Program-made: the position numbers and the translations under genes
Origin: Tepidisphaeraceae bacterium
GTDB lineage: Bacteria; Planctomycetota; Phycisphaerae; Tepidisphaerales; Tepidisphaeraceae
NCBI GenBank assembly: GCA_035998445.1
Contig: DASYHQ010000061.1
Span: 62,001-126,000, forward strand
Direction of reading: 5' to 3'
Length of the DNA stretch: 64,000 nucleotides
The notes under the pieces: generated by a model
The model's database searches: none
What the model saw: only the letters and a program-made list of their open reading frames with translations
Told to the model about the DNA's origin: nothing
Part shown: positions 7,189 through 63,667 of the stretch, piece after piece
How positions within the stretch are numbered: position 1 is the first letter of the stretch
Layout of the letters: each line of letters opens with the position of its first letter

Positions 7189-7353
7189 GAGACAGACAGG
7201 AATGTCCGTCCCACCCAATGCAAAGACAGAAGAGACACAGGCAAGAATGCCTGTGCCACAGAAGAGAGGCAGACAGGGGGAGAGACAGACAAGAATGTCC
7301 GTCCCACAGAAGACAGGGGGGAGAGACAGGCAAGAATGCCTGTCCTACAGAAG
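7189..7353. repeat. CAGGCAGGAATGCCTG-family palindromes (F1), four units
   Basis: Four successive units share the pattern GAGACAnnCAnGAATGnCnG followed by a CACAGAAG-like end. Each contains a small palindrome such as CAGGCAAGAATGCCTG. The family recurs in this window, often as converging clusters around F2 or F7 cores. Confidence 0.85.
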
Positions 7354-11719: not shown

Positions 11720-11852
11720 CTTCTGTAGGACAGGCATTCCTGCCTGTCTCTCCCCCCATATTCTCTCTGCCCCTCTTCTGTGGCACAGGCATTCTTGCCT
11801 GTGTCTCTTCTGTCTTTAACTCTCTGTAGTAGGGCGGACATTCTTGTCTGCC
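11720..11852. repeat. F1 palindrome cluster (left end of composite)
   Basis: Three F1 units in the orientation CTTCTGTAGGACAGGCATTC, CTTCTGTGGCACAGGCATTC and TAGGGCGGACATTCTTGTC. They point toward the F2 core that follows; an opposing F1 cluster lies at 12354-12491. Confidence 0.85.
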
Positions 11853-12212: not shown

Positions 12213-12353
12213 GGACCTATGCACTTGACGAGACCTCGTCATCCTGAGGTACTCCGAAGGATCTCTTCCTTCACGAAGTGAATACGGGGGGAGATCCTTC
12301 GGAGTACCTCAGGATGACGAACTGCGAGGCCCTTTCGTCAAGTGCATAGGTCC
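12213..12353. repeat. Long perfect-stem hairpin, GTCATCC family variant (F3b)
   Basis: An inner stem of 28 bp pairs 12238-12265 with 12291-12318 without mismatch around a 25-base loop. An outer stem of 19 bp pairs the GGACCTATGCACTTGACGA end with its complement at 12335-12353. The core GTCATCCTGAG...GGATCTC is the CTGAG-type relative of the F3 palindromes. Confidence 0.9.
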
Positions 12354-12491
12354 GGACAAGAATTTCCGTCCCGCTGGCAGAGAAGACTGAGAGACACAGG
12401 CAAGAATGCCTATGCCACAGAAGAGAAAAGAATACGGGGGGAGATGAAGACGGGGGGAGAGACAGGCAGGAATGCCTGTCCTACAGAAGAG
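12354..12491. repeat. F1 palindrome cluster (right end of composite)
   Basis: F1 units in the orientation GAGACACAGGCAAGAATGCC and GAGACAGGCAGGAATGCCTG, inverted relative to the cluster at 11720-11852. Together they bracket F2 and F3b. Confidence 0.85.
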
Positions 12492-25995: not shown

Positions 25996-26153
25996 GTCAT
26001 CCCGAAGGCAGCTTAAAGGCGGGCGGACAAATGCCCCGCGCAATGCCTAACCTGTGAGACCGAGGAGAGCGGTAGCGACCCGAGCGATCTCCCATGGCCG
26101 GCACCGTCAGTCAGTCGAGTTCCCTCAGGTCGCTACCCTCCCTTCGGGATGAC
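25996..26153. repeat. F3 palindrome copies, two overlapping
   Basis: GTCATCCCGAAGG at 25996 starts one arm. A second, fuller left arm begins near 26060 (CGAGGAGAGCGGTAGCGACC) and both share the right arm ending CCCTTCGGGATGAC at 26153. The right arm has the CTCAGGTCGC and CCCTTCGGG variants seen in other short copies. Confidence 0.75.
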
Positions 26154-26200: not shown

Positions 26201-26280
26201 AAGACACAGGCAAGAACGCCTGTGCCACAGAAGAAGGAATACGGGGGAAGAGACAGGCAGGAATGCCTGTCCTACAGAAG
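26201..26280. repeat. F1 palindrome cluster
   Basis: Two units: AGACACAGGCAAGAACGCCT and AGACAGGCAGGAATGCCTGT, each followed by an ACAGAAG end. Confidence 0.85.
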
Positions 26281-32010: not shown

Positions 32011-32047
32011 TTCGGCGTTCTTTGGACGCCGTGTCATGCGAATGGTT

Positions 32048-32151
32048 GTCATCCCGAGGGGAGCCGTAGCGACCCGAGGGATCTAGGACCGCAGACGACG
32101 TCAGCAGTGAGTCGCGATCCCTCAGGTCGCTACCGCTCCCTTCGGGATGAC
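32048..32151. repeat. F3 palindrome in the nuoM-nuoN gap
   Basis: The left arm GTCATCCCGAGGGGAGCCGT and so on to 32083 pairs with the right arm ending CGCTCCCTTCGGGATGAC at 32151, with a 30-base loop. It ends 38 bases before nuoN. Confidence 0.9.
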
Positions 32152-32189
32152 AGTAAAGCGCCACAGGGCGGAATGAATCCGAGTAAACG

Positions 32190-33963: not shown

Positions 33964-34083
33964 CTTCTGTAGGACAGGCATTCCTGCCTGTCTCTCCCCC
34001 CGTATGCTCTCTTCTGTGGCACAGATTCCTGCCTATGTCTCTTCCTATTTTCCCCCTTTGGTGGGAGGGACATTCTTGTCTAT
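33964..34083. repeat. F1 cluster, left end of composite around F7
   Basis: CTTCTGTAGGACAGGCATTC, CTTCTGTGGCACAG (truncated) and GGAGGGACATTCTTGTC units. They face the F1 cluster at 34257-34350 with F7 between. Confidence 0.85.
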
Positions 34084-34100
34084 CTATCTTTGCTGCCTGT

Positions 34101-34222
34101 GCGCGCCAAGAACGCCAAGGCGCCAAGCACGCCAAGATTGAAGAGACGAGGAATAGGGCTGAAGACAATCCTCTTTTCTCTCTTACCTTGGCGACCTTGG
34201 CCTCTTGGCGTCCTTGGCGCGA
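34101..34222. repeat. F7 GCCAAG/CTTGGC inverted repeat
   Basis: GCGCGCCAAGAACGCCAAGG at the left and CTTGGCGTCCTTGGCGCG at the right with an A/G-rich centre; nearly the same layout as 42782-42897. Confidence 0.85.
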
Positions 34223-34256
34223 TGCGTCGCGCCGCAGAGGGGCATGAAGGTGAAGA

Positions 34257-34350
34257 GAGAAGAGACACAGGCAAGAATGCCTGTGCCACAGAAGAGAGGC
34301 AGAAAGCAATACGGGGGGAGAGACAGGCAGGAATGCCTGTCCTACAGAAG
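34257..34350. repeat. F1 cluster, right end of composite around F7
   Basis: GAGACACAGGCAAGAATGCC and GAGACAGGCAGGAATGCCTG, inverted relative to 33964-34083. Confidence 0.85.
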
Positions 34351-36095: not shown

Positions 36096-36122
36096 TGTCA
36101 TCCCGAAGAGAGCGGTGGCAAT
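36096..36122. repeat. Half arm of an F3 palindrome
   Basis: TGTCATCCCGAAGAGAGCGG followed by TGGCAAT resembles an F3 left arm without partner; a decayed copy. Confidence 0.5.
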
Positions 36123-36332
36123 TTGGGGGATTCGTTCGTCCCCGAACCGGGGGCCAACGAAGTACCTGCCTTGACCCCGCGCTGGCGTCGATTGTCAATT
36201 GTTTCTCATATTGCGTAAGCTCCGCGATTTCCTAGGAGATATCGCAGCTGGCGAGGGTGACCTGCGCCCCGATCTGCCGAGAATAATCGGACTGAAATTT
36301 GCGATCGGCCAAACTGGGTATATATTTCGGAG

Positions 36333-41195: not shown

Positions 41196-41210
41196 TCGCA
41201 GCCATAACCT

Positions 41211-41311
41211 GTCATCCCGAGGGGAGCGGTAGCGACCCGAGGGATCTCGACCGACTGACGGTGCGGGCCATCGGAGATCCCTCAGGTCGCTACCGCTCCC
41301 TTCGGGATGAC
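41211..41311. repeat. F3 palindrome
   Basis: The left arm starts GTCATCCCGAGGGGAGCGGT and the right arm ends CGCTCCCTTCGGGATGAC, with a 27-base loop. It begins 16 bases after the Gln-rich gene. Confidence 0.9.
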
Positions 41312-41382
41312 AACTTGCCATTGACGTGCGATGCGATAAACCGTGATTCATCTGCATTTGAAACGAACAAAAGGAATCGAGA

Positions 41383-42642: not shown

Positions 42643-42740
42643 CTTCTGTAGGACAGGCATTCCTGCCTGTCTCTTACCCCGCTCTCCCCCTGTATTCTCT
42701 CTTCTGTGGCACAGGCATTCCTGCCTGTGTCTCTTCTCTT
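42643..42740. repeat. F1 cluster, left end of composite around F7
   Basis: CTTCTGTAGGACAGGCATTC and CTTCTGTGGCACAGGCATTC units facing right. Confidence 0.85.
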
Positions 42741-42781
42741 TGGTCTTTCCTCCTGGTGGACTCTCTCTCTTCGCTGCTTCT

Positions 42782-42897
42782 GCGCGCCAAGGCCGCCAAG
42801 TCCCCAAGGCCGCCAAGGTCGAACAGGCGAGCGGCGAAAACAGTCCTTCTCTGCTTCTTACCTTGGCGGCCTTGGCCTCTTGGCGTCCTTGGCGCGA
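42782..42897. repeat. F7 GCCAAG/CTTGGC inverted repeat
   Basis: GCGCGCCAAGGCCGCCAAGT at the left, CTTGGCGTCCTTGGCGCG at the right, similar to 34101-34222 including the adjacent GATGCG. Confidence 0.85.
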
Positions 42898-42915
42898 TGC
42901 GCCGAGCAGTAGAGT

Positions 42916-43019
42916 GACAGACAGGAAGAATGTCCGTCCCAACAGAAAGACAGAAGACGGAATACGGGGAGAGAAATGCCGGGGGGCGAGACAGGCAGGA
43001 ATGCCTGTCCTACAGAAGA
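42916..43019. repeat. F1 cluster, right end of composite around F7
   Basis: GACAGACAGGAAGAATGTCC and GAGACAGGCAGGAATGCCTG units in opposite orientation to 42643-42740. Confidence 0.85.
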
Positions 43020-48745: not shown

Positions 48746-48927
48746 CTTTCTGTTTCCGTTTCTGTTTTCCCGCGGGCACGCCAGTTCCGCCTCCGGTAAG
48801 ACGAAGGTGATGCACATCGAATCCGACTAATCGATCTGCGTCACCTTTTCCGTCTCCGACGATCTCCCGAGCGCGTGGCCATGCTACCGGCCTGAGGTGG
48901 GGAATCGTTGTTGGAGACCGCGTTTCG

Positions 48928-49053
48928 TTCGAGCGAACGTGAGTTTCCTTCGAGCAAAAGGGATTTTCCTTCGAACAAAAATGACTTTTGCTCGAACAAA
49001 AAAGACTTTTGCTCGAAGGAAAAAGACTTTTGCTCGAAGGAAACTACGTTTTG
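48928..49053. repeat. Tandem array C: 6 units of exactly 21 bp
   Basis: Units start at 48928, 48949, 48970, 48991, 49012 and 49033; a weak seventh may start at 48907. The constant part is TCGAACAAAAA or TCGAAGGAAAA, ending in GACTTTTG or GGATTTTCC. The unit contains a partial palindrome because TTCGAGCAAAAG and CTTTTGCTCGAA are inverses. The array is A/T-rich compared with its surroundings. Confidence 0.9.
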
Positions 49054-49130
49054 CGCGGGCGGTGGGTGGGGTTCAACGGGCGAGGCGGGGGATATCAGTA
49101 CTGAAAACGCGGCTTGCGGGATCCGCGGTC

Positions 49131-49258
49131 GGGCGGGCGGCACAGGTTGGGTACTCGCAACCGGTGTTGTCGATCAGGCCGCAACGGCGAGGCGGTGGGG
49201 GCGCACTGAAGGTCCGTCTCGGTCGCACCCGTTGGGCGTACCCAACCTGTGCCACCCG
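49131..49258. repeat. Imperfect inverted repeat between arrays C and D
   Basis: GGCGGCACAGGTTGGGTACT at 49136 faces CGTACCCAACCTGTGCCACC at 49237. It separates the two 21-bp arrays; GGCACAGGTTGGGT text also occurs at 50695. Confidence 0.6.
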
Positions 49259-49310
49259 GCACTGGTAAGGATGGTTTGTCGTCCACCACAGAGATTGCGT
49301 GGTCCACCAC

Positions 49311-49520
49311 GGAAGTTCCGTGCACTTGCCCGGAAGTTCCGTGCACTTGCCCGCGAGTTCCGTGCACTTGCCCGGAAGTTCCGTGCACTTGCCCGGAAGT
49401 TCCGTGCACTTGCCCGGAAGTTCCGTGCACTTGCCCGGGAGTTCCGTGCACTTGCCCGGAAGTTCCGTGCACTTGTCCGGGAGTTCCGTGCACTTGCCCG
49501 GAAGTTCCGGGCACGTGCAC
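49311..49520. repeat. Tandem array D: 10 units of exactly 21 bp, nearly identical
   Basis: Units start at 49311 and every 21 bases to 49500. The unit is GGAAGTTCCGTGCACTTGCC plus one C. Copies 49311, 49332, 49374, 49395 and 49416 are identical; others differ at one or two bases. The unit contains GGAAGTTCC, a perfect 8-bp palindrome around a central base, and GTGCAC. Two decayed units may precede (49269, 49290). No spacers, so not CRISPR. The high identity points to recent expansion. Confidence 0.93.
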
Positions 49521-49684
49521 GGAAGATTAACACCCCAGCACGGCGGCGGGAAAAACGGGATGTTATGGGGCGGCCGATCGGCGGCGGGCCAGGGCGGTTC
49601 TTATCGGGCGGGTCGGGCGGGGGGCAGGGTTTGTAATCAAACCTTGGCTCTCGACCTTTTATACGGATCAGGTTTGATCGCTGC

Positions 49685-51719: not shown

Positions 51720-51738
51720 GCGCTTTGGTTGGGGGATT

Positions 51739-51995
51739 TAGCGCCAAGAACGCCAAGACGCCAAGAGCGCCAAGGGGAGGAAAGGGTAAGAGGAGAGGGT
51801 GTTTTGTCCGGTCCCTCTCCCATGTACTTATGGGAGAGGCTAGGTGAGGGTGATTTCGAACTGCTGACGGTTCTCGACTGGTCGAAATCACCCTCACCTA
51901 GCCTCTCCCGGCGTACCGGGAGAGGGACCGGAGGGATTGGCTCGCGCTCTCTGTCTTCCTTGGCGAACTTGGCGTCTTGGCGTGCTTGGCGCTAA
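51739..51995. repeat. F7 repeat containing a nested F6 repeat
   Basis: F7 arms GCGCCAAGAACGCCAAGACG (51741) and CTTGGCGTCTTGGCGTGCTT (51970) enclose a full F6 element at 51810-51929 (GGTCCCTCTCCC ... GGGAGAGGGACC). The F6 copy appears inserted in the F7 loop. The remaining 150 bases to the next gene show no other feature. Confidence 0.85.
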
Positions 51996-52148
51996 ACAAC
52001 GAACAGCGACCGCCCCCCAGATCTTCCATTAAGCCATCGCGAATCGCCCAACCACAGACTATGATCGTTCACGCACGGCGTAGGCTGGCGGACGGTTCAG
52101 CATCGGGCGGGCACCATCGAGCACCTTTCAGCGACAATCTCACCGCAG

Positions 52149-60481: not shown

Positions 60482-60519
60482 CGGTGCCGTAATGCACCTT
60501 GTGTAGCCGTTGTATAGAT

Positions 60520-60925
60520 TGTCATCCCGAGGGGAGCGGTAGCGACCCGAGGGATCGCGCACAGGGAAACCATCATGAAGCGGTACGATGTCTACATCCT
60601 CGCAAGCCCCTCGCGCGTCTTGTACGTCGGCGTGACGAGCGACTTGGCCGGACGCATGCACCAGCACCGCAACAGGCTCGTACCCGGGTTCACTGCGAGA
60701 TACGGCGTCACGCGACTCGTCTTTCGCGAGACGTTCGGCGACGTGACGCAGGCCATCGATTGGGAGAAGAAGATAAAAGGCTGGCGGCGAGAAAAGAAAG
60801 TAAAGCTGATCGAATCCGTCAACCCGGAGTGGCGAGACCTCTACGATGATTCGACGGAAGGTGGACCGGGGCCATCGCTGACTGTGGCGATCCCTCGGGT
60901 CGCTACCGCTCCCCTCGGGATGACA
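60520..60925 (+). mobile_element. F3 palindrome carrying a GIY-YIG nuclease gene
   Basis: The left arm is 60521-60558 and the right arm 60887-60924. They are perfect reverse complements over 38 bases (GTCATCCCGAGGGGAGCGGT at the left outer end). The 328-base interior holds most of a GIY-YIG nuclease gene whose frame runs through the right arm. The outer flanks T and A extend the terminus to TGTCATCC...GGATGACA, as in the short copies at 32048 and 41211. It is inserted between the DUF58 and BatA-like genes. Target duplication is not visible. Calling it mobile is inference. Confidence 0.75.
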
Positions 60926-61009
60926 ACCGGAGCGGGTGGCGACGTACTTGATGGGCCACCGATGACCCTTCGCGACCCGCTGCATCCGATCCGCCGTATA
61001 CTTGGGTGA
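60575..61009 (+). CDS. GIY-YIG endonuclease-fold protein
   Basis: A 144-residue protein. Residues 1-90 are a complete small GIY-YIG domain: YDVYILA and LYVGVT (the GIY and YIG strands), R27 in GRMHQH, FTARYGVTRLVFRETF, the helix IDWEKKIKGWRREKKVKLIE and the family-typical end NPEWRDLY. From residue 91 the sequence is unusual: residues about 105-117 (AIPRVATAPLGMT) are translated from the right arm of the palindrome and the rest from downstream DNA. Such single-domain nucleases cut DNA; many are of unknown role. It ends 3 bases before the BatA-like gene. Confidence 0.85.
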   Translation: MKRYDVYILASPSRVLYVGVTSDLAGRMHQHRNRLVPGFTARYGVTRLVFRETFGDVTQAIDWEKKIKGWRREKKVKLIESVNPEWRDLYDDSTEGGPGPSLTVAIPRVATAPLGMTTGAGGDVLDGPPMTLRDPLHPIRRILG

Positions 61010-63060: not shown

Positions 63061-63212
63061 CTTCTGTAGGACAGGCATTCCTGCCTGTCTCTCCCCCCGT
63101 ATTTCTTTCTGCTTCCCTTTTGTGGCACAGGCATTCCTGTCTGTGTCTCTTCTCTGTCTTTCCGCCTTTCCGCTGCCGGTGGGGCGGTCCATTCTTGTCT
63201 GTCTCTCTTTCG
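63061..63212. repeat. F1 cluster, left end of composite around F2
   Basis: CTTCTGTAGGACAGGCATTC, TTTGTGGCACAGGCATTCCT and GGCGGTCCATTCTTGTCTGT units facing right. Confidence 0.85.
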
Positions 63213-63221
63213 CTTGTCAGG

Positions 63222-63525
63222 AAGGAAGAGACGCGAAGACGCGAAGGCGCGAAGGAGGGGGCGAAGGAAAACGAAGGGCGTTGCGCTAATACGACGTCTA
63301 CCGCGCAGCGCGGGCGTAGAGATGGATAGCCTGTTCTTTGACAACCGAATACGCGATGCGGTGGACCGCACCGGCCACCGGATCGACCACCCGATGTTGC
63401 ACAATGGTGCAAAATGGTGCACGGAATCGCAGTTTGTCTTACCCAAACCGCCGTCGCGAGTGGCTTTGTCCTCTTCGCGGTTCTTCGCGTCTGCCCTTTG
63501 CGACCTTCGCGTTCTATTCTGGTGC
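63222..63525. repeat. F2 repeat with boxA-like motif
   Basis: GAAGACGCGAAGGCGCGAAG at the left, TCTTCGCGGTTCTTCGCGTC at the right, and a core with CTGTTCTTTGACAACCGAAT at 63331-63350 and CACAATGGTGCAAAATGGTG. Confidence 0.85.
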
Positions 63526-63527
63526 GC

Positions 63528-63667
63528 AAGAGAGACAGACAAGAATGTCCGTCCCGCCAAGAGAAGGAAGACAGTAGAGACACAGGCACGAATGCCTGTG
63601 CCACAGAAGAGAGAATACGGGGGGAGAGCGGGGGGAGAGACAGGCAGGAATGCCTGTCCTACAGAAG
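63528..63667. repeat. F1 cluster, right end of composite around F2
   Basis: GAGACAGACAAGAATGTCCG, GAGACACAGGCACGAATGCC and GAGACAGGCAGGAATGCCTG, opposite in orientation to 63061-63212. It ends 33 bases before the valS stop. Confidence 0.85.

Follow-up and report, generated by a model that had tools for sequence, protein, structure and literature searches.

The window, the whole 64,000-nucleotide stretch analysed here from a contig of a Tepidisphaeraceae bacterium, contains a small nuclease gene enclosed by two inverted copies of a short tagged repeat (Table 1). The initial annotation had described these arms as perfect reverse complements over 38 nucleotides; they are indeed perfect, but over 40 of 40 positions. 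Each arm begins with TGTC, continues into an imperfect hairpin that opens with AT and closes with AT-C, and ends in ATC followed by TC or G, without a CCA tail. Folded alone, the left arm forms a hairpin that leaves the TGTC tag unpaired, and the stem, which starts with AT, is imperfect (5+3+2 bp). The gene frame of 145 codons reads through the right arm, and its GIY-YIG domain comprises the first 92 residues. A PF01541 match at residues 6-75 (E=1.7e-10) bears out the earlier placement of this domain inside the arms. The unit has terminal inverted repeats, which in an insertion sequence or a MITE go with a target-site duplication.

Table 1. Tagged repeats and the nuclease gene in the window (position 1 is its first nucleotide)
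Feature	Position	Strand	Remarks
Left TGTC-tagged REP arm, TTGTCATCCCGAGGGGAGCGGTAGCGACCCGAGGGATCGC	60519..60558	+	Tag outward; 40/40 complementary to right arm
Right TGTC-tagged REP arm	60887..60926	-	Tag outward
GIY-YIG nuclease gene	60575..61009	+	ATG at 60575; conserved domain to ~60850; stop at 61009, past right arm
Gene-less REP pair, window family	41210..41312		Arms facing; spacer ~29; DNA fold -50.4 kcal/mol, z -11.5
Gene-less REP pair, window family	32047..32152		Spacer ~32; fold z -8.2
CTGAG sub-type TGTC REP pair, GTCATCCTGAGGTACTCCGAAGGATC	12238..12318		Within longer palindrome, ~12213-12353
Worn REP pair	25996..26153		Sequence read
Solitary worn REP arm	36096..36130	+	Sequence read

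The same arms recur without the gene. Six arms with at most 3 mismatches are present in the window, as compared with none in dinucleotide shuffles, and a strict arm pattern finds 196 across the 64 contigs (5.84 Mb) of the genome, as compared with none for the reversed control. They typically form pairs with outward tags and a spacer of 29-31 bases. The empty pairs with loops of about 30 bases and the worn forms that the initial annotation had listed are all present; its CTGAG relative is also there, as a pair at 12238-12318 inside a longer palindrome at about 12213-12353. This palindrome (CTATGCACTTGACGA...TCGTCAAGTGCATAG) resembles the H. neapolitanus CGTC-1 pairs of PMC3733652. A PF01541 profile search of the genome found a single small GIY-YIG gene, the one between the arms; the other match, a 581-aa frame, is probably UvrC. 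There is thus one gene per ~200 or more REPs, and since gene-less copies outnumber the gene to this extent, most are not simple deletions of the gene-bearing unit. The earlier proposal of a gene-bearing element with gene-less derivatives, comparable to REPs and their RAYTs but with another nuclease fold, is supported, with corrections.

The window arms match the CGTC-tagged REP superfamily, described in 2013 by Di Nocera, De Gregorio and Rocco (PMC3733652), in their TGTC tag, AT-starting stem, inverted pairs and high interspersed copy number. Members of that superfamily, which includes the Neisseria CGTC-1 elements, carry a CGTC, TGTC or CCTC tag and an AT-starting stem and form inverted dimers; a CGTC REP is defined by a stem of 8-9 bp, a loop of 4-5 and an unpaired tail fitting CCA (PMC3733652). 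In common with them, the window family has an unpaired (C/T)GTC 5' foot, an AT-stem hairpin and an intergenic location in inverted pairs, with hundreds of copies and several families per genome; it differs in its longer, imperfect stem and its lack of the CCA tail. Proteobacterial members of our set have an 8-bp stem and a 4-5 base loop, and CCA or CCAG tails occur among them. Across lineages the hairpin bodies vary widely while GTC-AT is kept. The 2013 survey describes a superfamily that "apparently lack[s] a dedicated transposase", reports no transposase gene with such elements on its flanks, and suggests that these REPs might be dying out (PMC3733652). We found the nuclease gene in species which that survey names: A. 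lipoferum, N. aromaticivorans, S. meliloti, Bradyrhizobium and Neisseria.

A second REP system operates on a parallel plan in the window's genome, which has 8 Y1_Tnp (RAYT-type) matches, several of them flanked by outward GTAG/GTGG REPs; Y1_Tnp is thus paired with GTAG/GTGG REPs and GIY-YIG with TGTC REPs. The window itself holds at least 15 GTAG/GTGG-tagged REPs (GTAGGACAGGCATTCCTGCCTGTC), at 7236-7348, 11725-11803, 12461-12484, 26252-26275, 33969-34345, 42648-43013 and 63066-63662. A CGCCAAGG-type unit occurs in inverted runs at 34102-34221, 42783-42896 and 51737-51996, two of them between GTAG REPs, and the region 48922-49524 is densely packed with short units in inverted and tandem order (TTTTGCTCGAAGGAAA and TTCCGTGCACTTGCCCGG), its long arms being self-complementary.

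To examine the pairing of gene and repeat, relatives were drawn from a one-genome-per-species collection, from relatives of the window's genome and from plasmid records. When the upstream flank was locally aligned with the reverse-complemented downstream flank, inverted repeats were found around about half of 106 loci, as compared with 1 of 355 shifted controls. With a REP defined as (G/C)TC plus an AT-hairpin within 300 bp on each side, GTCAT-hairpins lay on both sides of the subfamily gene at 61 of 99 loci and at none of 429 pseudo-gene positions in the same loci, and both-sided REPs were absent from all 13 loci of other GIY-YIG subfamilies. Real neighbour genes provide a further control: both sides were occupied for 58 of 95 subfamily genes versus 6 of 229 neighbours (Fisher p=1e-31), and 106 of the 229 neighbours had a REP on one side. 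In a further Planctomycetota set, 19 of 27 loci had REPs on both sides and 24 of 27 on at least one, with 0 of 63 in the control. Homologs thus do lie inside such arms, and the link between GIY-YIG genes and palindromes suggested by the initial annotation holds in many phyla. The window has its gene in the loop of one arm pair; elsewhere, a complete REP pair on each side of the gene is a frequent arrangement.

The pairing recurs in at least 12 bacterial phyla, both-sided cases being found in Chloroflexota, Acidobacteriota, Bacteroidota, Pseudomonadota, Bacillota, Cyanobacteriota, Nitrospirota, Ignavibacteriota, Omnitrophota, Patescibacteria, Planctomycetota and others. The viral contigs searched contained no relatives of the nuclease. 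When every perfect hairpin in the flanks was scanned without a preset motif, GTC was the top-ranked 5' tag, with 37-fold enrichment, and TGG, the complement of the CCA tail, came second. Tags beside the gene are not uniformly oriented; at 27 of 61 loci they point outward on both sides. In sphingomonad members (L145, N. aromaticivorans pNL2; L147, Sphingobium), GTCGCCCC... and GTCACCCC... arms replace GTCAT, so the strict REP test undercounts this group.

The pairing is specific to the subfamily. A Pfam search of eight REP-rich Planctomycetota genomes that lacked a strong hit yielded 17 small GIY-YIG genes of other kinds and 8 UvrC-like genes, none of which adjoins a REP. Two REP-rich Planctomycetota genomes carry UPF0213/URI-like small GIY-YIG genes, many in G119 and five in G226, none of them REP-flanked. 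Proteins of higher identity have more similar REP cores (Mantel r=0.21; 0 of 5000 permutations; computed without pairs above 75% identity); host relatedness accounts for part of this co-variation. The two paralogs of S. meliloti Ak57 share 54% identity and are accompanied by different REP families (CTCATYCCTGTG... and GTCATCCTCGGGCTTGACC...), and the closest homologs in Rhizobium and Shinella have the matching REP type. A protein tree was not used for any claim, its columns being too few to resolve deep forks.

We also compared gene presence with the genome-wide density of REPs, counted with the pattern GTCATYCYN{6,30}RGRATC. Among 61 class relatives the density was 25 per Mb with the gene and ~3 without (p=4e-4), and among 294 Planctomycetota, where distribution of the subfamily gene is patchy (29 genomes), it was 11.6 versus 2.8 per Mb (p=5e-14; odds ratio ~23); these p-values overstate independence because the genomes are related, although gene-positive genomes span many families. 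At least one gene-positive genome with a low count (G144) carries a REP type that the pattern does not cover. No subfamily member was found in the assemblies of some REP-rich genomes (G180, G119, G233, G162, G099 and G226); REPs can therefore persist after the gene is lost, or spread by another route.

Comparison of empty and filled loci between related strains, which the initial annotation had proposed, revealed several states of one site. The Sphingobium fnrL site is empty of REPs in strains TYG72 and TYG65. In TYG64 and TYG74 it contains a single palindromic REP, GTCAC...GTGAC, and in MM7A and TYG73 it is filled by REP-gene-REP with the same outer REP sequence; the gene copy of TYG73 is frameshifted. 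In A. lipoferum, a REP pair-gene-REP pair insert splits sufB from sufC and is absent from A. ramasamyi, A. oryzae, B510, A. thermophilum and TSH58; no other REPs were found in 50 kb around it, and the corresponding 50 kb in two relatives contain none either. Directly upstream of a full unit in S. meliloti Ak57 is a REP-flanked unit that has lost most of the gene (L155, 1719-1875 and 2002-2371). The pSymB strains of this species have too few REPs to read insertion polymorphism. No clear target-site duplication was seen at the empty and filled sites compared (sufB-sufC and fnrL), whose flanks have diverged. A mobile unit that gives rise to internally deleted derivatives would be expected to leave just these states: empty, REP-only, filled and internally deleted.

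Tyr17, Gly19, Arg27, His31, Glu64 and Asn83 of the nuclease are invariant in 53 relatives, and Tyr7 is nearly so. The catalytic residues Y17, R27, E64 and N83 are among these positions, and their constancy points to selection for catalytic function. The protein thus has the Tyr, Tyr, Arg and Glu that are conserved in the GIY-YIG nuclease superfamily (Y7, Y17, R27 and E64). The window protein matches PF01541 only, with no second domain, and is not a PF01797 HUH-Y1 protein. Its AlphaFold model has a mean pLDDT of 94.7, and the solved folds nearest to it are UPF0213 proteins and Slx1. Among solved structures, UPF0213/YhbQ-like proteins (PDB 1zg2, 1ywl) are the closest in both sequence and fold, and they are about equal in size; unlike the window subfamily, the UPF0213-like genes tested are never REP-flanked. 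Slx1 (PDB 6seh, 7cq4), whose GIY-YIG fold matches the predicted structure, acts on branched DNA, but it requires Slx4 and a RING domain and is not mobile. GIY-YIG homing endonucleases of the I-TevI type (PMC1564403) share the catalytic fold and probably the selfish behaviour; such enzymes cut the uninterrupted cognate allele, have a DNA-binding tail and reside in introns or inteins or stand free in phage. The window protein, at 92 residues, differs from them in having no C-terminal DNA-binding domain and no intron or intein host, and nucleases of its type are tied to tagged hairpin repeats.

A close parallel to the whole unit is the RAYT/TnpA-REP REPtron (PMC2817692, PMC3116915, PMC6006769), with which it shares one gene per REP type, inverted flanking REP pairs, a REP family proper to each enzyme, a patchy distribution and an excess of gene-less pairs; the RAYT is an HUH-Y1 transposase with a GTAG tag, whereas here the enzyme is a GIY-YIG nuclease and the tag (C/T)GTC. 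The REPs on either side of the GIY-YIG gene are of its own type and form inverted pairs, as in a REPtron. The coupling of gene and REP is well supported by these observations. We consider it likely that the gene and its arms form a REPtron-like unit, with the single-domain GIY-YIG nuclease as candidate dedicated enzyme of TGTC/CGTC REPs, as RAYT is for GTAG REPs.

Cleavage and mobilisation of the REPs by the predicted nuclease are what we infer from this coupling. The protein would recognise the unpaired GTC tag at the hairpin foot, single-stranded during replication or extruded, and might nick beside the tag, in the way that Slx1, close to it in structure, works on branched DNA. Host repair or replication could then copy a REP, a REP pair or a REP-gene-REP unit into new intergenic sites. 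In a RAYT-type REPtron the enzyme both cleaves and rejoins its REP. Cleavage by GIY-YIG enzymes is hydrolytic and, unlike that by RAYTs, passes through no covalent intermediate. Because a hydrolytic cut leaves no covalent DNA link, the joining step must come from the host.

The main rival to a dedicated enzyme is a homing-type gene that merely lands in REPs: the nuclease would cut REP hairpins and the gene would be copied into the break, while the REPs owe their spread to another agent. Homing endonucleases with a GIY-YIG fold are known (PMC1564403), as are IS elements that target REPs (PMC1525189), and some Sphingobium strains have only one palindromic REP where sister strains have REP-gene-REP; a nuclease that only inserted at REPs would account for some of what is observed. 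However, the A. lipoferum gene arrived with REP pairs in a region otherwise without REPs, gene-positive genomes have the higher REP density, each paralog retains its own REP type across genera, and well-covered Planctomycetota loci include almost no REP-free member (24 of 27 have at least one REP). We therefore regard a homing parasite as unlikely.

Less probable still is that the protein serves the host as a housekeeping structure-specific nuclease, trimming REP hairpins or cruciforms so that REPs are tolerated and not mobilising them. Strictly conserved catalytic residues and a predicted fold nearest to UPF0213 and the branched-DNA nuclease Slx1 would suit such a role. On the other hand, a housekeeping gene would not need to be REP-flanked itself, nor would one expect its presence in just 29 of 294 genomes, and the internally deleted REP-flanked copies, the frameshifted copy and the presence or absence at a site are typical of mobile units. 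Finally, REPs gather in intergenic DNA, as the one-sided REPs at 106 of 229 neighbour genes illustrate, and the gene might simply sit in REP-rich stretches. This can hardly be the explanation: it is refuted by the controls (both sides occupied at 58 of 95 genes versus 6 of 229 neighbours), by the lack of REPs at other GIY-YIG subfamilies in REP-rich genomes, and by the 40/40 identity of the window arms.

With a dedicated enzyme as the preferred reading, we give roughly even chances to a broader proposal, that of a bacterium-wide mobile-repeat system in which a lone 90-residue GIY-YIG nuclease cuts hairpins hydrolytically, host repair completes the move, and the enzyme is the one behind CGTC REPs including the Neisseria repeats. 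If true, short repeats would transpose without the chemistry of DDE enzymes, HUH enzymes, serine or tyrosine recombinases, or reverse transcriptases. Our search of an open-access library turned up no paper linking GIY-YIG to REPs.

The coupling to REPs would give a function to a common family annotated merely as "GIY-YIG nuclease family protein". Partnership between a REP and a dedicated nuclease seems to have evolved with two unrelated folds, in some cases within one genome. REPs of the CGTC type are found in Neisseria, rhizobia, Rickettsia, Bacteroidota, Planctomycetota and more, where they shape intergenic DNA, and the enzyme that spreads them has long been missing; the GIY-YIG nuclease is the best candidate for this role. 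A partner that is specific to one subfamily and co-varies with the repeats in sequence makes the missing-enzyme question of CGTC REPs directly testable.
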